DNA from: Candidatus Lightella neohaematopini
GTDB taxonomy: Bacteria > Pseudomonadota > Gammaproteobacteria > Enterobacterales > Enterobacteriaceae
Direction: 5' to 3'
Assembly: GCA_025728315.1 (NCBI GenBank)
Contig: JAOBJW010000002.1
Coordinates: 47,041-111,040, forward strand
Length of the DNA stretch: 64,000 nt
Shown here: positions 618-58,625 of the stretch, in pieces
How the letters are laid out: each line of letters begins with the position of its first letter
Position numbering within the stretch: position 1 is the first letter of the stretch
Position numbers and translations under genes: made by a program
The notes under the pieces: generated by a model
Databases searched by the model: none
Told to the model about the DNA's origin: nothing
What the model saw: the letters and a program-made list of their open reading frames with translations, nothing else

Positions 618-1592
618 TTAATTAAAATGATCATATCCTAATGGATTTTTTAGAAATTTACTATTATAATTCAGTAATAATAACTTTTTTCCTATATAAG
701 GAATAATTTTTCCAATATAAGTAATTTTAGTATTTTTATTTAATTTATACAATAAGTTAATATTATTTTTATTAATAGTAAAACATAATTCATAATCTTC
801 ACTATTACATACTAAATTTAGTGCATCATTATAATTAACATATTTTTTTAGTTTTTTAGATAATGGAAGATGATTAAGATATATTTTAGCACTATATTTA
901 GTATTGATTAGCATGCTGTATATTTCTTTTAAAATACCATCAGAAATATCAGTAGCAGAATTAGCAATAATTCTAATTTTTTTACTAAATTCTAATGGTG
1001 GTCTAGGTCTTAGATGTTTATTTATAAAATAAAGTTTATGTTTTATATTTAAAATTTTAATATTATTTTTTAATATTTCTAATCCATAAGCACTATCTCC
1101 AAGTGTACCAGTGACATAAATCATATCATTGATATTTATATTAGATTTAGTTAACTGTTTATTTATTGGTACAATTCCATATATAGTTGCTGTAATACTT
1201 AATAGCTTACCTTTACTAAGATCACCACCTATTAAATAAATATTATAGTAATTTAATTGTTTAAATAATTCATTACTAAATAAAGATAACCAGTATTCAT
1301 TATATTTTGGTAATATTAAAGATATAGTAATCCATTTTGGTTTAGCCCCCATAGCCATTATATCACTTATATTAACAACTACTATTTTATATCCTAAATC
1401 ACTTGGATTAGTATTAGGTAAAAAATGTATCCCAGACACTAATGAATTAGTACTTATCGCAATAAAATATTTATTGCTATCAACAGATAATAATGCACAA
1501 TCATCTCCAATACCAAGTTTAATACAGTTATCATTTATTTTTTTTTTAAAAAATCGATTTATAATATAAAATTCATTTATGACATTTTTCAT
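618..1592 (-). CDS. thiL: Thiamine-monophosphate kinase
   Basis: ATP-dependent kinase converting thiamine monophosphate to thiamine diphosphate. The 324 residues match the E. coli length of about 325. Family motifs are IGDDCALL near residue 28, VNISDIMAMGA near 75, GGDLSKGK near 122, a VTGTLGDSA segment and ATDISDGI near 215. It sits between nusB and pgpA as in E. coli. An uninterrupted run of ten T (1538-1547), read as A10 in the mRNA, codes for a Lys triplet near residue 17 and keeps the frame. Because ThiL only completes the cofactor, it fits either full synthesis or salvage of thiamine phosphate. Confidence 0.95.
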   Translation of the reverse strand: MKNVINEFYIINRFFKKKINDNCIKLGIGDDCALLSVDSNKYFIAISTNSLVSGIHFLPNTNPSDLGYKIVVVNISDIMAMGAKPKWITISLILPKYNEYWLSLFSNELFKQLNYYNIYLIGGDLSKGKLLSITATIYGIVPINKQLTKSNININDMIYVTGTLGDSAYGLEILKNNIKILNIKHKLYFINKHLRPRPPLEFSKKIRIIANSATDISDGILKEIYSMLINTKYSAKIYLNHLPLSKKLKKYVNYNDALNLVCNSEDYELCFTINKNNINLLYKLNKNTKITYIGKIIPYIGKKLLLLNYNSKFLKNPLGYDHFN

Positions 1593-6687: not shown

Positions 6688-6793
6688 AATATTATATTTA
6701 TTAACTTAAATAAATATAAAGATTAAAAAATAAGTTCTTAGTTAAGAACTATTAACAATAATTTAATTTATTTTAAAATCATATTCCTCATAT

Positions 6794-6866
6794 TGGGTCG
6801 TGTAGGATTCGAACCTACGACCAATTGATTAAGAGTCAATTGCTCTACCAACTGAGCTAACGACCC
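6794..6866 (-). tRNA. tRNA-Lys(CUU)
   Basis: 73-base tRNA on the minus strand with acceptor GGGTCGT/ACGACCC, D-arm AGCTCAGTTGGTAGAGC and T-arm GGTTCGAATCC, all like E. coli tRNA-Lys. The anticodon loop, however, reads CTCTTAA, so the anticodon is CUU and not the usual UUU. A CUU anticodon is expected to read AAG only, while AAA is the dominant Lys codon in this sequence. A separate UUU tRNA must exist elsewhere, or the base is changed or miscalled. Confidence 0.92.
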
Positions 6867-6879
6867 AATAAAATTACAA

Positions 6880-11533: not shown

Positions 11534-12553
11534 ATGATTATTATTAAATATATCTTTAATAAGATATGTAAAGTTCAAATTATTATTATACTAATTTTAG
11601 TATTAGTATTTCTTTGTCATAAAGCAATGAGAATACTAAAATTAATTGTTATTGGACATATTACTAAAAAATTAGCTATTATCTTAATAATTTTAAAAAT
11701 TCCTGAAATAATACAAATTATAGTACCTATAAGTATTATAATAAGTGTATTTATTACTATACAATATATACATAACAATAACGAATTATTAGTTATATAT
11801 AGTTGTGGATATAGTAAGAATATAATATATTTAACATTGTTAATTATAAGTATTTTTGCTATGCTTTTGACTACCATCAATAGTATGTGGCTTGTACCAA
11901 TATCTAACAGATATTATTGTCAATTATTAATCGATAATAGACAAAATAATATTAATCAATTAGCATTAAGTAATTTATCTACTAATATTAAAAATAATGA
12001 TATTATTTTTAATAAAAAATTAAATAATATTTTTTTAATAAAAATTAAAAAAAATAAATATTATCTAATAAGTACTGGTAATATTTGTAATTTTATTTGT
12101 AGTAAAAAATATAAATTAATTATATTATTTAATGGTAATAACTATTATTATGATTTATTAAATCAAAATTTAATAATAACAAAATTTAAAAAATACTATT
12201 TATTTTTTCAAATTAAAAATAAAAAATATAATTTATTATCTAATCAATTAAATTTAAATCAATTAATATTTAATATTAATAACCAAAATATAAATGAATT
12301 ACATTGGAGATATAACTTAGTATTATCTATACCATTATTTTATTTATTATCTGCAATTATTTTAGTTAGTAATATTAAAAAAATATTAGGTATTTCAATT
12401 GTAATAATACTATATATATTTTTTTTTATTATACAATACTTATTACGTATTAATATAACTAGTTATTCACATATGTTAATGTGGTTAATTTATATATTTT
12501 ACTTAATTATTATAATATTAACTAGGTATTTAACTGAAAAGTTATTACTATGA
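11534..12553 (+). CDS. lptF: LPS export ABC transporter permease LptF
   Basis: Inner-membrane permease of the LptB2FG complex that extracts lipopolysaccharide from the membrane. The 339 residues (366 in E. coli) start with MIIIKYIFNK, close to the E. coli N-terminus, and keep the coupling-helix region LLVIYSCGYSKN near residue 85. Three N-terminal and three C-terminal membrane segments flank a periplasmic beta-jellyroll stretch (about 130-255) that has become Asn/Lys/Ile-rich and hard to align. The stop overlaps the lptG start as ATGA. It lies divergent from valS, matching the E. coli lptFG/pepA-holC-valS region with pepA and holC lost. An antisense frame at 11617-11880 is a shadow. Confidence 0.88.
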   Translation: MIIIKYIFNKICKVQIIIILILVLVFLCHKAMRILKLIVIGHITKKLAIILIILKIPEIIQIIVPISIIISVFITIQYIHNNNELLVIYSCGYSKNIIYLTLLIISIFAMLLTTINSMWLVPISNRYYCQLLIDNRQNNINQLALSNLSTNIKNNDIIFNKKLNNIFLIKIKKNKYYLISTGNICNFICSKKYKLIILFNGNNYYYDLLNQNLIITKFKKYYLFFQIKNKKYNLLSNQLNLNQLIFNINNQNINELHWRYNLVLSIPLFYLLSAIILVSNIKKILGISIVIILYIFFFIIQYLLRINITSYSHMLMWLIYIFYLIIIILTRYLTEKLLL

Positions 12554-13614
12554 TAAGTAAAATTAATAAATATATCAAATTAGTATTTGGTATATTAAAT
12601 TTATATATTTTAAAAAATATTTTTACTTATACCATACAAATTTCATGTATTATAAGTTTATTATCTTGTATTAATAAATTAATTGAAATATCAAATAAAA
12701 TACATAACTATCCAGTAATTCATATTATATTAATAATTTTATTTAATATTATTAAAGATATGGAATTATTTTTACCAATAATAATTTCTTTATCTGTATT
12801 ATGCAGTATAATTTCATTAATACTAAAAAATGAATTAATAATAATTTTGACATTAAAAAAAAAATGTTATCAAATTACAATATTAATCATTAAAATTAGT
12901 ATTATTACTGCAATATTTTTTTTATTAATTTTAGAAACTATTTTATCCTTTAACTATCTTCTATTTAATTTTAATATGAAAAAAAATACTACTAATTATA
13001 GTATTTATATTAAAAATAATAAAAAATCTATTTTAATAGATAATATTTATAATAATAAAATATTTAATATAAATATATTTTATACTACAAATAATAATAA
13101 ACTATATAGCATATATCATGCTAAAACAGCAAAATTTATCAAAAATTATTGGATATTATATGATGTAAAACATTTGAAATTAACAAAACCTATATTAAAT
13201 GATTATATACCAATTTGTATATGGCATACTAATTTAACACCATACGAACTACATATTTTTACTTTGACTCCAGAATTATTATCTATTAAACAATTATATC
13301 ATCAAATTAATTTTTTAAAAAAAAATAATATGGATTATTATTATTATCAACTATATATGTGGAATAAATTACTATTGCCTATTAATATTACTATTATTAT
13401 ATTTATTATAACTTCAATAAGTTTTCGTAAATTAGATAAATTATCTATAAAAAGTATAGTAATAAATAGCTTGATAGTAAATTTTTTGTTTTATATTATA
13501 CATCAATTTATATTATATATAAGTTTTATTGTACATAAAATCTTACTAATAGTATTAGTATCACACTTAATAGTATTATTATACTGTATAAAAATAAATA
13601 GAAGTATACTATAA
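12550..13614 (+). CDS. lptG: LPS export ABC transporter permease LptG
   Basis: Second permease of LptB2FG, 354 residues (360 in E. coli), with membrane segments at both ends and a diverged periplasmic domain between. It is assigned mainly from position, size and topology plus weak matches such as DMELFLPIIISLS and LPINITIIIFIITSISF. Translation is coupled to lptF through the ATGA overlap. A run of ten A (12855-12864) falls in a Lys triplet with the frame intact. The partner ATPase gene lptB (16 kb) carries a frameshift at a similar tract. Identification is good; functional quality is uncertain because of divergence. Confidence 0.85.
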   Translation: MISKINKYIKLVFGILNLYILKNIFTYTIQISCIISLLSCINKLIEISNKIHNYPVIHIILIILFNIIKDMELFLPIIISLSVLCSIISLILKNELIIILTLKKKCYQITILIIKISIITAIFFLLILETILSFNYLLFNFNMKKNTTNYSIYIKNNKKSILIDNIYNNKIFNINIFYTTNNNKLYSIYHAKTAKFIKNYWILYDVKHLKLTKPILNDYIPICIWHTNLTPYELHIFTLTPELLSIKQLYHQINFLKKNNMDYYYYQLYMWNKLLLPINITIIIFIITSISFRKLDKLSIKSIVINSLIVNFLFYIIHQFILYISFIVHKILLIVLVSHLIVLLYCIKINRSIL

Positions 13615-15974: not shown

Positions 15975-16705
15975 TTATGTTTTATACATAAAATCACTTC
16001 CTAAATACAATAATTTTACTTTTTTATTAGATCTAACTTCTTTAGACGTACCATGAGCAATAACTTGACCCTTATATAAAATATATAAATCATCACATAA
16101 ATCAAGAATTTCTTTAGTATTATGATCAGTAATTATTATTCCTAAACCATCATTTTTAAGTTGTTTAATAATATTTTTTATATTTAATATTGATATTGGA
16201 TCTATACCTAAAAATGGTTCATCAAATAATATAAATTTGGGATTAGTTGCTATAACACGAGCTATTTCTACTTTTCTACATTCACCTCCTGATAATGTAT
16301 AACCAATATTATTAGTTAAATGTTCTATATTAAATTTTTTAATTAATGATAATACTAATTCATTTTTTTTTTATACGACAAATGTTTTTTGTTTTCTAAT
16401 GCAATCATAATATTATCAAAAACACTTAAACTACGAAAAATAGAAGTCTTTTGTGGTAAAAAATTAATACCATAATGTACTCTTTTATGTATAGAAAATT
16501 TATTTATATTAATATTATTAATTAACACATCTCCTTTATTACTTTTAATAATACCAACAATTATATAAAATATAGTAGTTTTACCAGAACCATTAGGACC
16601 TAATATACCTATTATTTTTCTTGAATTAAAGTATAAATTAATATTATTAATTATTATGGTATTATTATATTTCTTACTAAGATTTTTTACAATTAAATAA
16701 CTCAT
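15975..16705 (-). CDS. lptB: LPS export ATPase LptB, frameshifted in an A10 tract
   Basis: ATP-binding subunit of LptB2FG. The first frame (16705 to 16355) gives Walker A GPNGSGKT and the Q-loop region, then stops just after a run of ten A in the mRNA sense (T run 16363-16372). One extra A, or two fewer, restores a frame that continues to the stop at 15975-15977. That frame carries the signature LSGGECRKVEIARV, Walker B FILFDEP, IITDHN and the terminal LYLGSDF, for about 243 residues against 241 in E. coli. All catalytic motifs survive, so the gene is probably expressed by slippage on the A tract, or the base count is a sequencing error. Confidence 0.88.
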
Positions 16706-16719
16706 TTATTATTTACGCA

Positions 16720-17223
16720 TTAAAAAGATTTAATCAAAATATGTACTTGATTACTATTATCAAATGATATTATTTGTTTTTTACTAATTACATACATTAT
16801 ATATTTACCATATATATGAATACTATTATAACAAATATTAACATGATTTATTAAAAGAATAATATTTTTATCTATGTTAAAATAAAATTGATTAGATTTA
16901 CCTAATAAATTAATATTATTAATACATATTTTAATATATATTAATGGTCTTCCATATCCATAAACTATATTAGTATTATTGTTATGATTAGTGCTATTAA
17001 TAATAGCTTTGTTAGCATTAATTATTATATTAGAATATTTTATTTTAACATTATTAATAAATTTAATAGTATTACTAAATAAATTAATTATCTGTTTATC
17101 TGATGATATTAAAATATCATTTTTCGTATTTGCCAATACATTGTAACTAATAAATAAAATTAATAATATATACAAAAAATTAATTATTTTTAAATATTTA
17201 TAATAAATAACGAAATAATTCAT
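16720..17223 (-). CDS. lptA: Periplasmic LPS transport protein LptA (diverged)
   Basis: 167-residue protein with an N-terminal signal peptide (about residues 15-32, ending VLAN) and an OstA/LptA-like beta-strand domain: DKQIINLFSNTIKFINNVKI and the ANKAII, GYGRPLIYIKI and HIYGKYIMYV segments. LptA bridges the inner- and outer-membrane parts of the LPS export machine. Sequence similarity is low, so the call rests partly on position between kdsC and lptB, the E. coli order. The E. coli gene lptC should lie between kdsC and lptA; only 96 bases separate them here, so lptC has been deleted. Confidence 0.82.
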   Translation of the reverse strand: MNYFVIYYKYLKIINFLYILLILFISYNVLANTKNDILISSDKQIINLFSNTIKFINNVKIKYSNIIINANKAIINSTNHNNNTNIVYGYGRPLIYIKICINNINLLGKSNQFYFNIDKNIILLINHVNICYNSIHIYGKYIMYVISKKQIISFDNSNQVHILIKSF

Positions 17224-17319
17224 TTATTTAATTATATTAATATCTTTTATTGTTAACTTAATTAAGATACTATATTTAATACTAATTAATCATACAAAAT
17301 CATATCTAATATTATTAGA

Positions 17320-17865
17320 TTAATAAACTAATTTATTCTGTGAAATAAGTAATAAATCACATACTTCTCTTACAGCTCCATTACCACCTACATAATTAGT
17401 TACATAATTAGCTACTTTAAATAGAGCTGGATGAGCATCAGATACAGCTACACTAAATTTTACTAATTTCATAACAGGAATATCTATTAAATCATCACCA
17501 ATATAAGCAGTATTATCAACAGTTAAATTTGTTTGATCTAATATTTCATATAATATTGGTACTTTATTTAATTTATTTTGATAAATATATTTAATATTTA
17601 AAGTATTACAATAATAGTTAACTACTTTAGAATATCTACCACTAATTACTGCAACTTCTATATTAAATTTTTTTAAACAAAAAATACCATAACTATCACG
17701 AACATTAAATGATCTTAATTCTTCGCCATTATGATCAACATAGATAATATTATTAGTCATAACACCATCTATATCACAAACTAATAATTTAATATTTTTA
17801 GTAAGTTTCAATATTTGTTGTGTTATTAAACCCGTATTAGTATTTTTTAATTCCTTTTTATTCAT
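17320..17865 (-). CDS. kdsC: 3-deoxy-D-manno-octulosonate 8-phosphate phosphatase
   Basis: HAD-superfamily phosphatase releasing Kdo from Kdo 8-phosphate. The 181 residues (188 in E. coli) show motif 1 LLVCDIDGVMT near residue 31 and the FNVRDSYGI segment near 54. Motif 2 is VAVISGR, and the terminal motif is YIGDDLIDIPVM, followed by VSDAHPALF. It follows kdsD by 9 bases and is probably in one operon with it and lptA-lptB. Kdo made here would be used by WaaA (48 kb). Confidence 0.95.
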   Translation of the reverse strand: MNKKELKNTNTGLITQQILKLTKNIKLLVCDIDGVMTNNIIYVDHNGEELRSFNVRDSYGIFCLKKFNIEVAVISGRYSKVVNYYCNTLNIKYIYQNKLNKVPILYEILDQTNLTVDNTAYIGDDLIDIPVMKLVKFSVAVSDAHPALFKVANYVTNYVGGNGAVREVCDLLLISQNKLVY

Positions 17866-17874
17866 TATTTTAAT

Positions 17875-18846
17875 TTATACAAAAATATCATATATATTAA
17901 TTATACCAGTTAATTTGTAATTATCTATTACAATTAAATTTTTTATTTTATTTAATTTAATTAAATTAATAGCATTAATTAATGGTTGATTAGATGTAAT
18001 ACTAATTAAATTAGTTTTCATTATTGATAAAATTTTAGTTTGTTTTAAATTACTATTGTTAAGCAAAAAATTTTTTATGTCTTTATTTGTTACTATACCA
18101 ATAACATTATTATCTTTATTATAAATAATTACTATACCTAAAGAATTATTTATTTTTTGAATTACTTCATATAGTGAATTATCGTGATACATTACTGGTA
18201 AATCTTTAACATCACGCATTACATCGCTAACTTTAATTAAATTAGTATTTTTTATTGTACCTTCTGGATGTGATAGAATAAACTTATTTAAAGTAAATTT
18301 TTTTATTTTAGATAAAGTAATTGCTAAAGTATCACCAATTATTAACATAGCAGTGGTACTAGTAGTTGGTGCTAATCCAAATATACAAATCTCTTGTATA
18401 ATATTAGTGTAAATATTAACTTGAGATATTTTACTAATAGTGTTGCCAACATTTCTCGTTATACTAATAATGTTTACTTTTAAGTGCTTTAACGCTGGAA
18501 TTAAAACTAACAATTCTCTAGATTCTCCAGAATTAGATAATATTACAATAATATCATTACTAGATATCATACCTAAATCACCATGACCAGCATCATTAGG
18601 ATGAATAAAAAATGATGGAGTACCAGTACTAGAAAAAGTAGCTGCTATTTTTTTAGCTATATGTCCAGATTTACCAACACCCATTGTGATTACTTTACCT
18701 GTACAATATAATATTAATTTACATGCATTATGAAAATTAATATCAATACATTTACTTAAGTTTTTTAGGCAATCTATTTCTTGTTTTAAGATAGATTTAC
18801 CAATAGATATAAAATTACAAGAAACTAATAATTCATTATAAGACAT
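17875..18846 (-). CDS. kdsD: D-arabinose 5-phosphate isomerase
   Basis: Makes arabinose 5-phosphate from ribulose 5-phosphate, the first step towards Kdo. The 323 residues (328 in E. coli) form an N-terminal SIS domain, with TMGVGKSGHIAKKIAATFSS near residue 55 and HGDLGMIS, SNSGES further on. A C-terminal pair of CBS domains (about 205-323) follows, with SDVMRD near its start. The mla genes and yrbG that separate this cluster from ibaG-murA in E. coli are gone, leaving a 234-base divergent gap to ibaG in which I see no gene. Confidence 0.95.
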   Translation of the reverse strand: MSYNELLVSCNFISIGKSILKQEIDCLKNLSKCIDINFHNACKLILYCTGKVITMGVGKSGHIAKKIAATFSSTGTPSFFIHPNDAGHGDLGMISSNDIIVILSNSGESRELLVLIPALKHLKVNIISITRNVGNTISKISQVNIYTNIIQEICIFGLAPTTSTTAMLIIGDTLAITLSKIKKFTLNKFILSHPEGTIKNTNLIKVSDVMRDVKDLPVMYHDNSLYEVIQKINNSLGIVIIYNKDNNVIGIVTNKDIKNFLLNNSNLKQTKILSIMKTNLISITSNQPLINAINLIKLNKIKNLIVIDNYKLTGIINIYDIFV

Positions 18847-23048: not shown

Positions 23049-24146
23049 ATGTTATATAATAAAAAATTTAATTTTAGTGCTAGTCAAGCAATGATCCCAT
23101 ATACTGTGTTAAAACAAATAAAAAAAGATTTATTTAACTGGAATAATAAAAATATATCTATAATGGAAATTAATCATCGTAGTAATTATTTTGTTTCTAT
23201 AGTAGAAAATACTAAGAAATATTTACGAGAATTATTAAATATACCCTTAAATTATAAAATAATATTTTGTTTTGGGGGGGCAAGAGTACAATTTTCTATT
23301 ATTCCAATTAATCTTATAAAAAATAAATTTAGTTCTGCTGATTACGTAAATAGTGGATACTGGTCCAGTAGTGCTATAGATGAAGCTAAAAAATATTGTC
23401 TCGTTAATCAACTAGACGTTTTATATAAAGAAGATGGGTTAATAAAAGTTTATCCTATGAGTAATTGGTTAATTTCTAATAATAGTTCGTATTTACATTA
23501 TTGCCCTAATGAAACGGCAAATGGTATATATATTAATGAGTTACCTGATTTTCATAATCGTATTGTTATTGCTGATTGTTCATCAATAATATTATCTCGT
23601 GTGTTAGATATAAGTAAATTTGGTTTAATATACGCAAGTACTCAAAAAAATATTGGTTTATCTGGATTAACTTTGTTAATAATACGTGATGATTTAGTTA
23701 ACATAAATAAAAATAATATAGTACCGTCAACTTTTAATTATCAATTCTTAATAAAATATAATTCCATGTTTAGTACCCCACCAACTTTTGTTTGGTATGT
23801 TGCTAATTTAATACTTAAGTGGTTAAAAAAAAAAGGGGGACTATCTAAAATTGAAAAAATAAATAAAATTAAATCTGATATCTTATATAAAGTAATAGAT
23901 AACAGTACTATATATAATAATAATATTTCATCTTTGTATCGATCATATACTAATATAATATTTAAATTACCTAATACTAATTTGCATAAGTTATTTTTAA
24001 AAGAATCTAATAAAGCAGGATTTTTAAATTTAGCTGGCCACAGAGCAATTGGTGGTATCAGAATATCTTTATATAATAGCATGACATTATTAGGAGTAAA
24101 AAAACTTGCTAAATTTATGTTTAATTTTTCTAATAAGTATAGCTGA
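23049..24146 (+). CDS. serC: Phosphoserine/phosphohydroxythreonine aminotransferase
   Basis: PLP-dependent aminotransferase of 365 residues (362 in E. coli). It acts in serine synthesis and, with 4-phosphohydroxythreonine, in pyridoxal phosphate synthesis (PdxF). Motifs are FNFSASQAMIP near the start, FCFGGARVQFSIIP near 75, the PLP lysine in YASTQKNIGLSG near 198, and a terminal AGHRAIGGIRISLYN. A run of ten A (23825-23834) before GGGGG lies inside WLKKKGG with the frame intact. With dxs present, retention of serC fits vitamin B6 synthesis; other pdx genes and serA/serB are not in the window. Confidence 0.95.
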   Translation: MLYNKKFNFSASQAMIPYTVLKQIKKDLFNWNNKNISIMEINHRSNYFVSIVENTKKYLRELLNIPLNYKIIFCFGGARVQFSIIPINLIKNKFSSADYVNSGYWSSSAIDEAKKYCLVNQLDVLYKEDGLIKVYPMSNWLISNNSSYLHYCPNETANGIYINELPDFHNRIVIADCSSIILSRVLDISKFGLIYASTQKNIGLSGLTLLIIRDDLVNINKNNIVPSTFNYQFLIKYNSMFSTPPTFVWYVANLILKWLKKKGGLSKIEKINKIKSDILYKVIDNSTIYNNNISSLYRSYTNIIFKLPNTNLHKLFLKESNKAGFLNLAGHRAIGGIRISLYNSMTLLGVKKLAKFMFNFSNKYS

Positions 24147-24841: not shown

Positions 24842-26068
24842 ATGTGTCAGAATAATTATAAAGATAACATTTTATTTTGTGATCATCGAAAAATTGCTAA
24901 ACAAATGGACTTGTATCATATTCAAGAAGAAGCACCTGGAATGATATTTTGGCATAATAATGGATTAATTATATTTAAAGAATTAGAAAAATTTATTAGA
25001 TTACAATTAAAAAATTTTTCTTATCAAGAAGTTAAGTGTCCATCTATGATGGATAAAAATATATGGAAAATTACAGGTCATTGGGATAATTATTCAAGTA
25101 ATATATTTACTACTAGTTCAGAAAATAGAGAATATTGTATTAAACCTATGAATTGTCCAGGACATATACAAATATTTAATCAAACAATACAATCTTATCG
25201 TAATCTACCTTTAAGAATAGCAGAATTTGGTAGTTGTCATAGAAATGAACCATCTGGATCTTTATATGGATTAATGCGTATTAGAAATTTTACTCAAGAT
25301 GATGCGCATATATTTTGCACAGAAGAGCAAATATATGATGAAATTAGTAATTGTATAAAAATGATATACTATGTTTACAATATATTTGGTTTTAAAAACA
25401 TTAAAGTTAAATTATCAACTAGACCAAAGTGTAGAATTGGTGATGATAATACATGGAATTGGGCCGAAAAAAAATTGGTTGATTCTTTAAAAGGAAATAA
25501 TATAATTTTTGATTATCAATTAGGAGATGGTGCTTTTTACGGACCAAAAATAGAGTTTATATTATTAGATTCATTGGGAAGATTTTGGCAATGTGGTACT
25601 ATACAGTTAGATTTTTTTCTTCCAAATCGTTTAGGTGCTTACTATATTAATAAAAATAATTCTCGTAGTACTCCAATTATGATACATCGTTCTATTTTAG
25701 GCTCAATAGAACGTTTTATAGGAATAATTACGGAAGAATATGCTGGACTTTATCCAATATGGTTAGCACCAATACAAGTAGTTATTACAAATATAAGTAT
25801 TAATCAATATAATTATGTAAATGAAATTGGAAAAATTCTAATATCATTAAATATAAGAACTAAAATAGATACTAGAAACAAAAAACTAGGTTTTAAAATT
25901 AGAGAATATATCATTTGTAAAATACCATATATAATTGTTTGTGGTAACGAAGAAATATCATCAAAAAAATTATCAGTTAGAACTAGTAAGAGTAATAATT
26001 TTTATATTATAAGTATTAATAATTTTATAGAAAAAATTAAATATGAGATAAATAATTATTTAATTTAA
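24842..26068 (+). CDS. thrS: Threonyl-tRNA synthetase lacking TGS and editing domains
   Basis: Class II synthetase reduced to 408 residues (642 in E. coli). The protein begins just before [13 protein letters not shown], which in E. coli is the start of the catalytic domain near residue 244, and then aligns to the C-terminus. Zinc ligands Cys105 (MNCPGH), His156 (DDAHIF) and His282 (IHRSIL) and class II motifs 2 and 3 are intact, as is the anticodon-binding domain (about 305-408). The N-terminal TGS and Ser-editing domains are absent, and the 199 bases upstream show no trace of them. The enzyme should charge tRNA-Thr but not clear Ser-tRNA-Thr. It heads the thrS-infC-rpmI-rplT-pheST cluster. 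Confidence 0.95.
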
Positions 26069-41138: not shown

Positions 41139-44100
41139 ATGATTATTATAGATGGTAATCAATCAGTAGCAAATATTGCTTATGTTATAAATGAAATTAT
41201 AACAATTTATCCAATTACTCCTAGTTCTACTATGTCAAATTTAGTTAGTCAATGGTCAGATAGTAATGTACCTAACATATGGGGAAATGTACCTAAAGTA
41301 ATAAAAATGCAGTCAGAAATTGGTGTAATTGCTAGTATACATGGAGCATTACAAACAGGATCTTTAGCTACATCATTTACATCTTCACAAGGATTATTAT
41401 TAATGATTCCTAATTTATATAAAATAGCTGGACAACTTATGCCATTTGTATTACATGTTGCAACTAGATCAGTAGCAACAAGCTCATTATCAATTTTTAG
41501 TGATCATTCTGATGTTATGGCTGCACGTACTACAGGATGTGCAATGTTATGTTCTAGTAGTGTACAAGAAGCGCAAGATTTTGCATTAATATCACAAGCT
41601 ACTAGCTTAAATAGTAGAATACCATTTATACATTTTTTTGATGGTTTTAGAACATCACATGAAATAAATAAAATAAATTCATTAAATAAAAAAATTATAT
41701 GTTCTATAATTTCACAAACATCAATAAATAATCATAGAAAAAGATCATTAGATCCTAGTAATCCATTAATTAGAGGAGTATCTGCTAATGATGATATTTA
41801 TTTTCAATCTAGAGAAGCATCGAATATTTACTATAATAATGTATTAAAAAATATTTTATGTATTATGAATAATTTTTATTTACTTACTGGAAGAAAATAT
41901 AATCCATTTGAGTATTATGGACATCTACAAGCAAATTCAATTATAGTAGTTATGGGATCAGCTTCTTATGTTTGTAAAGAAGTAGTAATGTACTTAATTA
42001 AAAAAAATTATAGAGTTGGTGTAATTATAACAAAATTATATCGTCCATTCTTTTATCAAGAATTTATAAAAGTTTTACCGAAAACAGTTTCTGCAATTGC
42101 TGTATTAGATCGAACTAAAGAACCAGGATCTTCTGGTGAACCATTATATTTAGATGTTAATAGTTCATTAACTAAAGCATTTTACAATAAACAAATAAGG
42201 TATTTACCACTAATAATTAGTGGTAGATTTGGTTTAGGATCAAAGGAATTTAACTTAAATTGTGTATTTTCAATATTTAAGGAATTAAATAAAAATAATC
42301 CAAAATTACATTTTACTGTTGGTATTTATGATGATGTTACTAATTTATCACTAAAAGTATCAAATAATAAATATTCGTTACATAATAGTTATATAATAGA
42401 AGCAATATTTTATGGTATTAGTGGAGATGGTTCAGTATCTGCTGCTAAAAATAGTGTAGCTATAATTGGTAATAATACTAATTTATTTGTACAAAGTTAT
42501 TCTCATCATGATTCTAGAAAATCTGGTAGTTTAACTTCTTCTCATATTAGAGTTAGTAATAATAATATTAATGCTCCTTATTTAATAAAATCAGCTAATT
42601 TTATAAGTTGTAGTCATTTACAGATTTTAAATAAATATAATATATTAAACAATTTAAATAAAAATGGTATTTTATTAGTTAATACAGTATATTGTTCTGA
42701 TAAAATACTGGATATGTTTTCTAATAATATTAAATCAATACTTTATAGTAAAAAAATTAAATTATACATAATAAATGCTAAACACATAGCTGATAAATAT
42801 AAGTTAGGTAGTAAAACTAATATTATTATGCAAGTAATATTTTTTAAATTAATAAAAATATTGCCAATGAATATAGTAATAAATCATTTAAAAAATCTAA
42901 TAATAGATGTTTATGAAAGTAAAAATAAACAATTAGTATTAAATTACTTAAATTTATTACCTAATATAACTAAATTAGTAAAACTTGTACCCATAAAATT
43001 AAATACTATTAATTTTAATTTAAATAATAAAATAAATAATTATATTAATAATCGTACTATATGTAAAAAAAATTTAATTTATAATATGATTCATGGATTA
43101 GGTAATTATATTCCTGTTTCTATGTTTCCTGTTGATGGAAGTTGGTATACTGGTACTTCAAAATTAGAAAAACGTAATCTTGCAGACCGTATTCCTGTAT
43201 GGAATGCTAGTTTATGTAGACAATGTAATTATTGTGTAGCAATATGTCCTCACGCTGCATTAAGAGTTAAAATAGTTGATAACAAAAATTTAGATAATAA
43301 ACCAAATAAAATGTCTTTTTTATCATTAAAATTGAAAAATTTTGAAGATAAAAAATACATATTACAAGTATCTCCAGAAGATTGTACTGGATGTAAGTTG
43401 TGTGTAGAAGCTTGTCCAGTTACAATAAATGGGATTAAAGCAATTAATATGAAATCTAATTTAAGACATTTTAATCAAGAAAAAATTAATTTTAATTTCT
43501 TTAAAAATTTACCAGATAGTATAAATACTAATAATTTTAAAAAATTAAATATTAGAACATCACAATTTATTCAACCATTATTTGAATATCCAAGTGCATG
43601 TTCTGGATGTGGAGAAACATCATATATAAAATTATTAACTCAATTATATGGTAAGAAATTAATAATAGCAAATGCTACTGGTTGTTCTTCTATTTATAGT
43701 GGTAATTTACCAACTACTCCGTATACAAAAGATAATTTTGGTAGAGGTCCAGCATGGGCTAATTCTTTGTTTGAAGATAATGCAGAATTTGGTCTAGGAT
43801 TTAAATTATCTATTAATTTTCATAAAAAAAGAGTATTAAGAATAATAAATAAATTAAAAAAAATAATACCTAGTTTAAATAATTATATTAATATAATTTT
43901 AAATGAAAATGAATTATCATATGAACATATTGAAGAAATAAAAAAATTAATAAATAATGACTACTTACTTAAGAATAGTATTTCTCATGATGATTTGAAT
44001 TATTTAATTAATAAATCAATATGGATTATTGGTGGTGATGGTTGGGCTTATGATATAGGAATTAGTGGTTTAAAATATGTATTAAATTCAAAAGAAAATA

Positions 44101-44666
44101 TTAATATTCTTGTATTAGATACACAATGTTATTCAAATACTGGTGGACAGTATTCTAGTGCTACTCCTTTAGGAGTGGTTACTAAATTTAGTAAATATGG
44201 AAAATTAAGTAAAAATAATAATTTAGGATTAAATATAATTAATACATACAATCATATATATGTTGCACAAATTTCTATAGGTGCTAATTTTCAACAAACA
44301 ATAAAAGCAATGCAAGAAGCAGAATTATATAATGGACCATCATTAATCATTGCTTATAGTCCATGTATAGAACATGGATACGATTTATCTTATAGTTATC
44401 AGCAAGTTAATAAACTAACATCTATTGGATTTTGGCCATTATATAGATTTAATCCTAATTTAATAATGAAAGGTATAAATCCATTATTTATTGATTATAG
44501 TATTACATCTGATAATGTATTAAATACATTAATAAAAGAACAACGTTTTAGAAGATTATATGAAATTAATCAAGAAAAATTTTATGACTTTTTAAAAGAA
44601 ATTAAAAAAGAAATAAAATACAAATTTAATTACTTATTAAGTATAAGTAAAAGATTTACTAAATAA
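41139..44666 (+). CDS. nifJ: Pyruvate:flavodoxin/ferredoxin oxidoreductase
   Basis: Large single-chain PFOR of 1175 residues (YdbK in E. coli, 1174) converting pyruvate and CoA to acetyl-CoA, CO2 and reduced flavodoxin or ferredoxin. Domain order: pyruvate/TPP pyrimidine domain (IYPITPSSTM near residue 26), CoA-binding domain (about 255-415), gamma domain, two [4Fe-4S] motifs (CRQCNYCVAICPH at 693 and CTGCKLCVEACP at 749), a cluster Cys in ACSGCGET near 820, and the TPP domain with GDGWAYDIGISGL near 967 and NTGGQYSSATPLG near 1003. All motifs are intact. The enzyme is oxygen-sensitive in most bacteria. Its neighbours (fabI, dut) do not suggest an operon. Confidence 0.96.
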   Translation: MIIIDGNQSVANIAYVINEIITIYPITPSSTMSNLVSQWSDSNVPNIWGNVPKVIKMQSEIGVIASIHGALQTGSLATSFTSSQGLLLMIPNLYKIAGQLMPFVLHVATRSVATSSLSIFSDHSDVMAARTTGCAMLCSSSVQEAQDFALISQATSLNSRIPFIHFFDGFRTSHEINKINSLNKKIICSIISQTSINNHRKRSLDPSNPLIRGVSANDDIYFQSREASNIYYNNVLKNILCIMNNFYLLTGRKYNPFEYYGHLQANSIIVVMGSASYVCKEVVMYLIKKNYRVGVIITKLYRPFFYQEFIKVLPKTVSAIAVLDRTKEPGSSGEPLYLDVNSSLTKAFYNKQIRYLPLIISGRFGLGSKEFNLNCVFSIFKELNKNNPKLHFTVGIYDDVTNLSLKVSNNKYSLHNSYIIEAIFYGISGDGSVSAAKNSVAIIGNNTNLFVQSYSHHDSRKSGSLTSSHIRVSNNNINAPYLIKSANFISCSHLQILNKYNILNNLNKNGILLVNTVYCSDKILDMFSNNIKSILYSKKIKLYIINAKHIADKYKLGSKTNIIMQVIFFKLIKILPMNIVINHLKNLIIDVYESKNKQLVLNYLNLLPNITKLVKLVPIKLNTINFNLNNKINNYINNRTICKKNLIYNMIHGLGNYIPVSMFPVDGSWYTGTSKLEKRNLADRIPVWNASLCRQCNYCVAICPHAALRVKIVDNKNLDNKPNKMSFLSLKLKNFEDKKYILQVSPEDCTGCKLCVEACPVTINGIKAINMKSNLRHFNQEKINFNFFKNLPDSINTNNFKKLNIRTSQFIQPLFEYPSACSGCGETSYIKLLTQLYGKKLIIANATGCSSIYSGNLPTTPYTKDNFGRGPAWANSLFEDNAEFGLGFKLSINFHKKRVLRIINKLKKIIPSLNNYINIILNENELSYEHIEEIKKLINNDYLLKNSISHDDLNYLINKSIWIIGGDGWAYDIGISGLKYVLNSKENINILVLDTQCYSNTGGQYSSATPLGVVTKFSKYGKLSKNNNLGLNIINTYNHIYVAQISIGANFQQTIKAMQEAELYNGPSLIIAYSPCIEHGYDLSYSYQQVNKLTSIGFWPLYRFNPNLIMKGINPLFIDYSITSDNVLNTLIKEQRFRRLYEINQEKFYDFLKEIKKEIKYKFNYLLSISKRFTK

Positions 44667-47788: not shown

Positions 47789-48274
47789 TTAGCTAATGTT
47801 AAATTTTTTATATACTGCGTGAGCAATTAATTTTGGTAAAAAACATTCTATATTACCACCATAATATGCAATTTCTTTTACTATGGTTGATGATAAATTT
47901 ATCCATTTTTTATCAGAAAACATAAATATGTTCTCTAGTTTAGGCATAAGTTTATTATTAATTTGTGCTAATTGCATTTCATAATCACAATCAAATATCG
48001 ATCTAATTCCCCTAATTATTACATTTATTCTTTTATAGCGTGCATAATCTACTATTAGTCCACTAAAACTAGTAATAGTAACATTACGAATATGCAATGT
48101 TGCTTGTCTAGCTAGGTAAATTCTTTCATTTAAACTAAATAATAATTTTTTATTATAATTGTTAGTAATAGCAACAATTACGTTATCAAATAATTTTGCT
48201 GCACGAGCAATAATATTTAAATGACCATTAGTTAATGGATCAAAAGTTCCTGGATAAATAACTTTATTTAACAT
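47789..48274 (-). CDS. coaD: Phosphopantetheine adenylyltransferase
   Basis: Adenylates 4'-phosphopantetheine to dephospho-CoA. The 161 residues (159 in E. coli) have the nucleotidyltransferase motif VIYPGTFDPLTNGHLNI near residue 5 and VIIRGIRSIFDCDYEMQLA near 85. Also present are SSTIVKEIAYYGG and a C-terminal PKLIAHAVYKK. It overlaps the 3' end of waaA by 11 bases and faces mutM, as in the E. coli mutM/coaD-waaA region. Confidence 0.97.
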   Translation of the reverse strand: MLNKVIYPGTFDPLTNGHLNIIARAAKLFDNVIVAITNNYNKKLLFSLNERIYLARQATLHIRNVTITSFSGLIVDYARYKRINVIIRGIRSIFDCDYEMQLAQINNKLMPKLENIFMFSDKKWINLSSTIVKEIAYYGGNIECFLPKLIAHAVYKKFNIS

Positions 48275-49550
48275 ATTTATCTATTAAATGTACTATTTTT
48301 TTTGATGAACCACAATACTTGTTAAGTACTAAATTAGTATAACAAGTACGATAATGATAATAAGCTTTATTATATAATAAATTATTAATTTCTTTTATTA
48401 AGGAATCTAGTGAATTAACTATTATTACACTATTATTTTTTTTTAATTTATGATAAACATCATGAAAATTATTGGTATATCGACCTACAATAATTGGAAT
48501 TATATGCACAATAGCTTCTAATGGATTATGACCTCCATAGTTTAATAAACTACCGCCAATAATAGCTATATCAGAAATACCATATAATAATAATAAATCA
48601 CCTATTGTATTTACTAGTAATATATGATGTTGTTTATTTAGTGTAATTTGTTTATTAAATATAATATAAGATAAATTATTTTTAGATATTAAATATATTA
48701 ATTCCTTAATGCGTTTTATGTTACGGGGAGCTATAATAAGTAATAAATTAGGAAATTTGCGTATTAATTTTTTGTATGCTTTTAATATTATAATTTCTTC
48801 TCCAGGATGAGTACTAGAAGCAATTAATGTTGGTCTATTATTATGTAATAACCACTTAAAACGTAATTTTACTGATTCAATTAAAATATTTTTTGTTAAA
48901 TATATATCAAATTTTAAATTATTTATTACTTCTAATTTGTTAGAAGTAATTCCTAATGACTTAAAACGATTACTATCTAATATACTTTGTGCAAAAACAT
49001 AATGAATATTATTTAATATATTAGACATAAAACTACTAATAATTTTATATTTTCTAAATGAAGAATCTGAAATACGAGCATTAATTAAAATAATAGGAAT
49101 ATTTCTTTTATTTAATAATTTAATTAAATTAGGCCACAATTCTGTTTCCACAATTATAAAAATTTTTGGTTTTACATGATTAATAAATTTGTTTATAAAA
49201 AATCTAATGTCATATGGTAAATAGATGTTATCTACATAACTTAAATAGTTATTTACTATCATTTTCCCAGTAAATGTTATATTAGTAATTAATATTGATG
49301 TAGAAGGATAGTAATGTTTTAAAATGTTAACTAATGGAATAATTGATAATGTTTCTCCTACAGAAGCAGCATGTAATACTATACTGTTAGATTTTATATT
49401 TTTATAAAATCCATAACGTTCATACCATTTATGGTAATAGTAATTTTTTTTTACCATTGACCAAATTATTCTAATAATTAGAATAGGCTGTAACAAGTAT
49501 AATATAATGTTGTATATTATATTAATTAATAATATTTTAAATTTTATCAT
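48264..49550 (-). CDS. waaA: 3-deoxy-D-manno-octulosonic acid transferase
   Basis: Adds Kdo residues to lipid IVA, 428 residues (425 in E. coli). An N-terminal hydrophobic helix (about 5-30) anchors it to the inner membrane. It has WYERYGFY near residue 42 and HAASVGETLSIIPLV near 60. The central IIVETELWPNLI and IPIILINARISD segments are retained. The C-terminal GT-B part shows SSTHPGEEI and IIGGSLLNYGGHNPLEA. Kdo supply comes from KdsD and KdsC in the window. Core glycosyltransferases that neighbour waaA in E. coli are absent, so LPS may be of the deep-rough type. Confidence 0.95.
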   Translation of the reverse strand: MIKFKILLINIIYNIILYLLQPILIIRIIWSMVKKNYYYHKWYERYGFYKNIKSNSIVLHAASVGETLSIIPLVNILKHYYPSTSILITNITFTGKMIVNNYLSYVDNIYLPYDIRFFINKFINHVKPKIFIIVETELWPNLIKLLNKRNIPIILINARISDSSFRKYKIISSFMSNILNNIHYVFAQSILDSNRFKSLGITSNKLEVINNLKFDIYLTKNILIESVKLRFKWLLHNNRPTLIASSTHPGEEIIILKAYKKLIRKFPNLLLIIAPRNIKRIKELIYLISKNNLSYIIFNKQITLNKQHHILLVNTIGDLLLLYGISDIAIIGGSLLNYGGHNPLEAIVHIIPIIVGRYTNNFHDVYHKLKKNNSVIIVNSLDSLIKEINNLLYNKAYYHYRTCYTNLVLNKYCGSSKKIVHLIDKYVK

Positions 49551-57770: not shown

Positions 57771-58625
57771 ATGACTAATAATCTTTTGATAATTATAGAT
57801 GGTTCATATTGTTTGTATCGTACATACTATTCGATAGTATCAATTAACAAAAATCTAGGTGAATCTAATGGAGTAATTTATGGAGTATTAAATATTATTA
57901 GTTATTTATTAACTAAGTATAAACCTAGTCATTTTGTAATTACTTTTGATAAAGGTGGAAAAACGTTTCGTAATAATTTGTATAATAATTATAAGTGTAA
58001 TAGAAACCCAATGCCAGATAATTTACGTAAACAAATTACTCCATTAAAAAAATTAATTAAAGCAATTGGTATTTCAACAATATCTATTACTGGAGTAGAA
58101 GGTGATGATATAATTGGTACTATTGCTTTATCAACTATAAATTATGATATTAATGTTATTATCGTTAGTAATGATAAAGATATGGCTCAATTAGTATCTA
58201 ATAAAATTAGATTATTAATTAAAATTTCTGGAAATGTTCTTGGTCCAAATGAAATAAAAGATAAATTTGGAGTTTCACCTAATTTAATTATTGATTATTT
58301 AGCATTAGTAGGGGATAGAATTGATAACATTCCTGGAGTTCCTGGTATAGGAGTAAAAACTGCCAGATTATTATTAAATAAATTAGGTAACCTAAAATTA
58401 TTATATAGTCATTTAGATAAAATTAATAGTGGTGAGTTTTATAGAGCTAAAAAAATTATATCTAATTTAATGCTGTATCGAGAAAATGCTTTTCTCTCTT
58501 ATAAGTTAGCTACTATTAAGACTAATGTGCCAATAAAATATTCTTATCATGACTTTATACTAAAACAATCTAAGTTAAGATTTTTATCTAGTATACTAAA
58601 GCAATATAATTGTATTGTTTCATAA
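57771..58625 (+). CDS. polA: DNA polymerase I reduced to its 5'-3' exonuclease domain
   Basis: 284 residues corresponding to the first third of E. coli PolA (928). Nuclease motifs are LLIIDGSYCLYRTYYS near residue 5, VITFDKGGKTFRNNLY near 55, the metal-binding EGDDIIGTIA near 110, SNDKDMAQLV near 140, and the helix-hairpin-helix region ALVGDRIDNIPGVPGIGVKTA near 185. The frame ends at the domain border and 53 bases later the opposing recG gene ends, so the proofreading and polymerase domains are absent. The same reduction is known in Buchnera. It should still remove RNA primers and flaps. Confidence 0.96.
   Translation: MTNNLLIIIDGSYCLYRTYYSIVSINKNLGESNGVIYGVLNIISYLLTKYKPSHFVITFDKGGKTFRNNLYNNYKCNRNPMPDNLRKQITPLKKLIKAIGISTISITGVEGDDIIGTIALSTINYDINVIIVSNDKDMAQLVSNKIRLLIKISGNVLGPNEIKDKFGVSPNLIIDYLALVGDRIDNIPGVPGIGVKTARLLLNKLGNLKLLYSHLDKINSGEFYRAKKIISNLMLYRENAFLSYKLATIKTNVPIKYSYHDFILKQSKLRFLSSILKQYNCIVS

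Follow-up and report, generated by a model that had tools for sequence, protein, structure and literature searches.

The lptB gene of Candidatus Lightella neohaematopini is divided between two reading frames at a run of ten A (A10) in the 64-kb stretch of DNA analysed here (the window), which belongs to draft L469 of this chipmunk-louse symbiont (7 contigs, 463,572 bases). The split is real and the gene in all likelihood functional, and we consider it highly probable that lptB undergoes some form of rescue. Our preferred explanation, to which we give a probability of about 0.65, is that lptB carries a stable frameshift that is rescued mainly by transcriptional slippage of RNA polymerase; from the comparisons below we infer the slippage, its transcriptional level, and a useful full-length protein. 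That figure was lowered from 0.72 because two further split genes, bamE and rnpA, have T TTT TTA as their zero-frame heptamer. At least six Lightella genes (lptB, dapB, lipB, bamE, rnpA, and murB) are split at homopolymers, of which the earlier note on this DNA had reported one.

Results

The comparison set consisted of seven Lightella drafts, G000 (L469), G001 (L207), G002 (L220), G003 (L217), G004 (L218), G005 (L201), and G006 (L208). One study and one assembler stand behind all of them; SPAdes in meta mode produced L469 from 100-nt paired reads, and the remaining drafts come from 160-nt reads (PMC9376444). A word search of the main text of that article found no mention of frameshift, homopolymer, slippage, lptB, dapB, or lipB, and our literature search returned nothing on slippage in Lightella and nothing on an lptB frameshift in endosymbionts.

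On the minus strand, lptB begins with an ATG at 16705 and continues for 111 codons to TAT, ten A, and then TG AAT TAG. This first frame terminates at 16355, and its product lacks the signature motif and Walker B, while the remaining 128 codons lie in the -1 frame and finish with a TAA that ends at 15975. The earlier note had placed the break in the A10 tract at 16363-16372 and had listed the motifs LSGGE, FILFDEP, IITDHN, and LYLGSDF downstream; direct reading of the minus strand confirmed its coordinates and the break, and all of these motifs are found in the -1 frame that runs to 15975. In a profile search, TIGR04406 (LPS_export_lptB) matched the first half with an E value of 2.3e-36 and the second with 5.8e-49, and the two pieces, searched apart, scored 125 and 167 bits (cut-off, 240). 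The unbroken orthologue of L207 (locus L001:5001-5720, 240 aa) passes the same cut-off with 300 bits and does not reach that of the narrower NF008144 (285 versus 381). ATG, GTG, and TTG are absent from the second frame of L469 until its last eleven codons, and the tract contains the heptamer A AAA AAA in the zero frame.

The gene stands in the company kdsD-kdsC-lptA-lptB, adjacent open reading frames (ORFs) that were named by NCBIfam (Table 1); no ORF for lptC is listed between kdsC and lptA, where the gap at 17224-17319 measures 96 bases. Most of the remaining LPS pathway is retained, with lpxC, kdsC, kdsD, waaA, two LptF/G permeases, and lptA. A profile search for the LptD barrel (PF04453) gave no match at E 1e-3. 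A 698-aa frame on the minus strand of locus L208 (1-1794; G000:C7 near 98218) has a weak LptD_N match below cut-off and is perhaps a very diverged LptD.

Comparison with related strains, a check for which the earlier note had asked, revealed the same break in five of the seven genomes (G000, G002, G003, G004, and G006), each with a pure A10 tract and a broken lptB frame, a recurrence that speaks for more than a chance event; in G004 the base following the tract is changed and the stop is kept. The frame is open in the other two genomes, with the tract broken up by a G in G001 and interrupted differently in G005. None of the seven genomes has a stop or an indel in the second half of the gene. 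In G003 and G006 the second frame has a GTG or ATG among its first six codons, and no early start is common to the split genomes. A tree built from 10,136 gap-free columns, with SH-aLRT and UFBoot support, joined G001 and G002 as sisters (99.1 and 99, respectively) and likewise G005 and G006 (100/100), the other nodes being weak. Because the in-frame G001 is the sister of the split G002, a single restoration is favored in G001. This copy is nested among split strains, and one such event is a simpler history than four independent losses. Across the genus, a split on the stem followed by two restorations requires as many changes as two splits and one restoration, and we prefer neither ancestral state, since lptB is in frame in the related genome G012.

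The sequence after the break evolves under constraint. We computed pN/pS for lptB, dapB, and lipB. Summed over pairs of the seven genomes, the value for lptB was 0.276 before the tract and 0.231 after it; among the five split genomes it was 0.316 before and 0.182 after. The wrong frames of the second half gave 0.77 and 1.51. Individual pairs were more widely spread, with dN/dS after the tract ranging from 0.08 to 0.58. When the second half of L469 lptB was evolved neutrally with simplified branch lengths taken from the tree (n = 2000), no simulation (0/2000) was stop-free in all five split genomes, and the minimum pN/pS was 0.69. Downstream pN/pS was 0.33 for dapB and 0.25 for lipB.

All six split genes need a shift in the -1 direction. 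Both dapB and lipB are split at an A10 tract in every one of the seven Lightella genomes, and their pieces cover positions 2-116 and 123-269 of 270 in TIGR00036 (dapB) and positions 4-137 and 136-210 of 215 in NF010922 (lipB). In related genera, dapB has an open frame of 261-282 aa in three of the four genomes searched and lipB one of 216-239 aa in all four, and because of these open frames the dapB and lipB splits seem to belong to Lightella. The bamE gene is split at a T9 tract (mRNA sense) in all seven genomes; one frame carries the lipobox NSGC, and the other the BamE domain (PF04355, 46.4 bits, above cut-off). The rnpA gene was seen in five genomes (all but G003 and G004); a T9 tract splits it in three of them, G000, G001, and G002, and the copies of G005 and G006 are whole. 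Its first frame covers positions 1-75 of 109 in PF00825; the last 28 residues, which make up the second frame, matched no family when searched alone and are too short for such a match. In G006 alone, murB is split at an A11 tract near the gene start, the other six genomes being open there; the search reported one TGA elsewhere in the murB gene of G004. The zero-frame heptamer is A AAA AAA in lptB, dapB, lipB, and the murB of G006, and T TTT TTA in bamE and rnpA.

We inspected all 108 pure runs of at least ten bases in the seven genomes (93 of ten and 15 of eleven). Twenty of them split a gene (dapB, 7; lipB, 7; lptB, 5; murB, 1). Among the other 88, 84 lie within open frames that extend for 600 nt or more, and six of the 84 are near presumed natural gene ends; three reach the edge of a stretch or contig, one being open in another stretch, and the run in locus L158 is in no long frame. 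Judging by where the E. coli genes end, we take the dapD- and ddl-like genes to end naturally close to their runs of ten. Fourteen of the 15 runs of eleven A are in open frames, the one in locus L142 traced just to the contig end, and the last is the murB split of G006.

The frequency of splits rose with run length. In L469, 3 of the 16 runs of ten (those in lptB, dapB, and lipB) split a gene, as did 2 of the 83 runs of nine (bamE and rnpA; ten versus nine, Fisher p = 0.03). The other 13 of 16 runs of ten are in open frames. Among runs of eight, of which the window and the further stretches examined contain 119, we judged none to split a gene. These counts are lower bounds, as splits whose first frame stays open past the tract escape detection; for runs of nine, a criterion of long pieces on both sides misses bamE and rnpA, and shorter pieces find both. 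We rejected the other flagged runs of eight or nine as splits and assigned them to gene junctions, to the ends of genes, or to open frames; the junctions among them are presumably yajC/ribD-, rpmC/rpsQ-, and rpsQ/rplN-like. There is weak evidence that tracts are more conserved at split sites, where A10 occurs in 7, 7, and 5 of seven genomes versus 1 to 7 at 13 in-frame sites (one-sided p = 0.04).

Table 1. Features of lptB, its LPS gene context, control tracts, and other split genes (window positions unless a locus is given)
Feature	Position	Strand	Basis or remark
lptB, LPS export ABC-transporter ATPase, two frames	15975..16705	-	pieces match TIGR04406 separately
lptB first frame, 116 aa, P-loop GPNGSGKT and segment FLPQKTS	16355..16705	-	ORF list; TIGR04406 positions 2-112/239
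A10 tract (mRNA sense), site of frame break	16363..16372	-	read directly
lptB second frame, LSGGE, Walker B FILFDEP, IITDHN, LYLGSDF	15975..16361	-	TIGR04406 positions 118-238/239
lptA, directly upstream of lptB	16720..17223	-	NF008143 E 3.5e-17, TIGR03002 E 1.5e-14 (both below cut-off); PF03968 above cut-off
kdsC, KDO-8-P phosphatase	17320..17865	-	NF007019 221 bits, cut-off 208
kdsD, arabinose-5-P isomerase	17875..18846	-	NF008141 E 1e-93 below cut-off; TIGR00393 above cut-off
LptF/LptG permease 1	11534..12553	+	PF03739 115.6 bits
LptF/LptG permease 2, with in-frame A10	12550..13614	+	PF03739 98.1 bits
waaA/kdtA, KDO transferase	48264..49550	-	PF04413 198.5 bits
Control A10 in open frame (ORF 618-1592)	1538..1547	-	G000:C6:48578-48587; locus L065, frame 972 nt
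Control A10 in open frame (LptF/G permease 2)	12855..12864	+	G000:C6:59895-59904; locus L066, frame 1074 nt
Control A10 in open frame (ORF 23049-24146)	23825..23834	+	G000:C6:70865-70874; locus L067, frame 1104 nt
bamE split	locus L171 near 1270 (G000:C5 near 64649)		also loci L113, L096, L142, L128, L250, L251
rnpA split	locus L179 near 1005 (G000:C7 near 47764)	-	also loci L246, L247; whole in L248, L249
murB split	loci L084 / L199 (G006:C6)		

Discussion

Three features of lptB agree with those of genes rescued by slippage: the break lies in a pure run of at least nine bases, the gene is otherwise whole, and the break is conserved across diverged strains, with purifying selection downstream of it. 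We propose that a stable one-base frameshift in the A10 tract would be compensated when RNA polymerase slips on the tract and generates a mixed pool of lptB mRNA, in which transcripts with one extra A (a net shift of -1 from the genomic frame) would encode the whole of LptB. That lptB is a rescued gene is supported by the conserved A10 split, the conserved downstream frame, the nested in-frame copy, and the presence of other such genes. The earlier note had likewise taken lptB for a rescued gene instead of an ordinary pseudogene or a sequencing error, and comparison with the six other genomes backs this part of its claim, slippage being the step that we infer. Several points weigh on the other side, among them that L469 itself has no run of eleven or more A and that the end of RnpA matched no family when searched alone. 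The missing match to the LptD barrel may mean that the export chain is reduced, and excerpts of one study argue that certain AT-rich symbionts, Wigglesworthia being an example, may suppress slippage (PMC1088944).

The same full-length protein could be made from a faithful mRNA if the ribosome shifted by -1 within the tract and read one base again, which we regard as less likely but as a serious rival. A slippery heptamer is in the zero frame of all six genes, their common -1 direction is what ribosomal frameshifting predicts, and a tRNA-Lys with anticodon TTT is present. However, the RNA 3' of the lptB, dapB, and lipB tracts folds no better than shuffled sequences in a test of pseudoknot-free folds (z values of 0.74 for lptB, -1.06 and 0.15 for dapB, and 0.13 and 0.16 for lipB; five stretches were used, and that of locus L048 was left out as lying too far downstream), and a Shine-Dalgarno-like element upstream of the A10 tracts is not obvious by eye. 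Moreover, a ribosomal heptamer requires no more than seven bases, and still, by our reading, no gene is split at any of the 119 runs of eight. RNA polymerase slippage has a threshold of nine bases according to excerpts of a previous study (PMC1088944), and the length effect that we observed fits this threshold better than a seven-base ribosomal shift; faster mutation of longer runs could be a partial source of the effect.

That the split simply inactivates lptB, leaving an ordinary pseudogene with a decaying second half, would agree with a first frame cut to 116 aa that is devoid of the signature motif and Walker B, and with the strongly reduced genome of this genus, in which L207 has 29 listed pseudogenes (PMC9376444). 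The state of the second half speaks strongly against such decay, as it is without stops or indels in all seven genomes and has a pN/pS of 0.18 in the five split ones, far from the outcome of the neutral simulations; the in-frame G001 is nested among split strains, and the second halves of dapB and lipB are similarly constrained. We therefore consider inactivation highly improbable. An artifact, in which the assembler dropped one A from a true A11 tract, draws some support from the single study and assembler behind all drafts and from L469 itself, whose A runs reach ten bases at 16 sites and never exceed that length; about three runs of eleven would be expected there (15 to 77 in the other drafts), and the chance of finding zero is near 0.045. 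Against this, the lptB A10 is shared by five libraries from different lice and with reads of both 100 and 160 nt, the four 160-nt libraries agreeing with L469, and most A10 tracts of L469 lie within open frames. The other six drafts contain one to three runs of eleven A each, which indicates that the assembler had no ceiling at ten, and we hold an error to be exceedingly improbable. Just as little credit is due to the idea that two polypeptides assemble into a split ATPase. The pieces span nearly the full TIGR04406 profile, and G003 and G006 have an early GTG or ATG in the second frame, but the second frame of L469 has no ATG, GTG, or TTG before its last eleven codons and the split genomes share no early start. 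One could further imagine a steady one-way bias of the Lightella expression machinery that reads long A and T runs as one base longer, so that a -1 run would count for almost as much as an intact frame. Six genes, some of them essential in other organisms, would have drifted into that state, and run length would perhaps be selected and set the protein dose. We consider this reading unlikely.

Frameshifted genes of Buchnera and Blochmannia are reportedly rescued at poly(A) tracts, as stated by Tamas et al. in 2008 and Wernegreen et al. in 2010. This background, on which the earlier note had relied, is borne out by excerpts of three articles that describe homopolymer-frameshifted genes of the same arrangement in these symbionts (PMC3017870, PMC5009743, PMC4389277), one of which gives the corrected frame in 12-50% of transcripts at such tracts (PMC5009743). 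In those excerpts, as in Lightella, a long stretch of A or T carries one indel, the gene is otherwise whole, the split is conserved across diverged strains, and selection acts downstream; several genes are split per Lightella genome, which resembles the four to eight per genome described for Blochmannia (PMC3017870, PMC4389277). Lightella differs in being a lineage of louse symbionts and in that lptB, dapB, lipB, bamE, and rnpA go unmentioned in the excerpts. It differs further from what they describe in that split and in-frame alleles coexist in sister strains and that three splits occur in all seven genomes. The phenomenon is thus already known, and what is new is the lineage, the genes, the coexisting split and in-frame alleles, and the set of at least six genes. 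According to an excerpt on Citrobacter rodentium, the prematurely interrupted tssM is expressed via transcriptional frameshifting; an interrupted gene is common to both cases, while the gene and the organism differ (PMC4256274).

Programmed -1 ribosomal frameshifting occurs in E. coli dnaX, which the Lightella genes resemble in the slippery heptamer and the -1 direction. In contrast to dnaX, the Lightella run is longer and pure, with no stimulatory structure found at lptB, dapB, or lipB, and lptB would yield one full-length enzyme instead of two designed products.

Plain annotation would score lptB, dapB, lipB, bamE, and rnpA as broken and lead to wrongly inferred losses of function, namely, of LPS export, the synthesis of lysine or of peptidoglycan precursors, the attachment of lipoate, the assembly of the outer membrane, and the processing of tRNA. 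This lineage of louse symbionts joins those in which slippage appears to protect genes from homopolymer indels. The occurrence of lptB and rnpA both split and in frame in sister strains, together with dapB, lipB, and bamE split in all seven genomes, offers a natural comparison of the cost of rescue and of RNA polymerase versus ribosome.

Some further observations concern L469. L469 retains both tRNA-Lys isoacceptors, CTT and TTT (window 6793-6867; locus L211). The frames at 24842-26068 (408 aa) and 57771-58625 (284 aa) look shortened compared with the E. coli lengths; we take them to be ThrS-like and PolA-like, respectively. A frame of 1175 aa at 41139-44666, unexpected for so small a genome, resembles a pyruvate:flavodoxin oxidoreductase.
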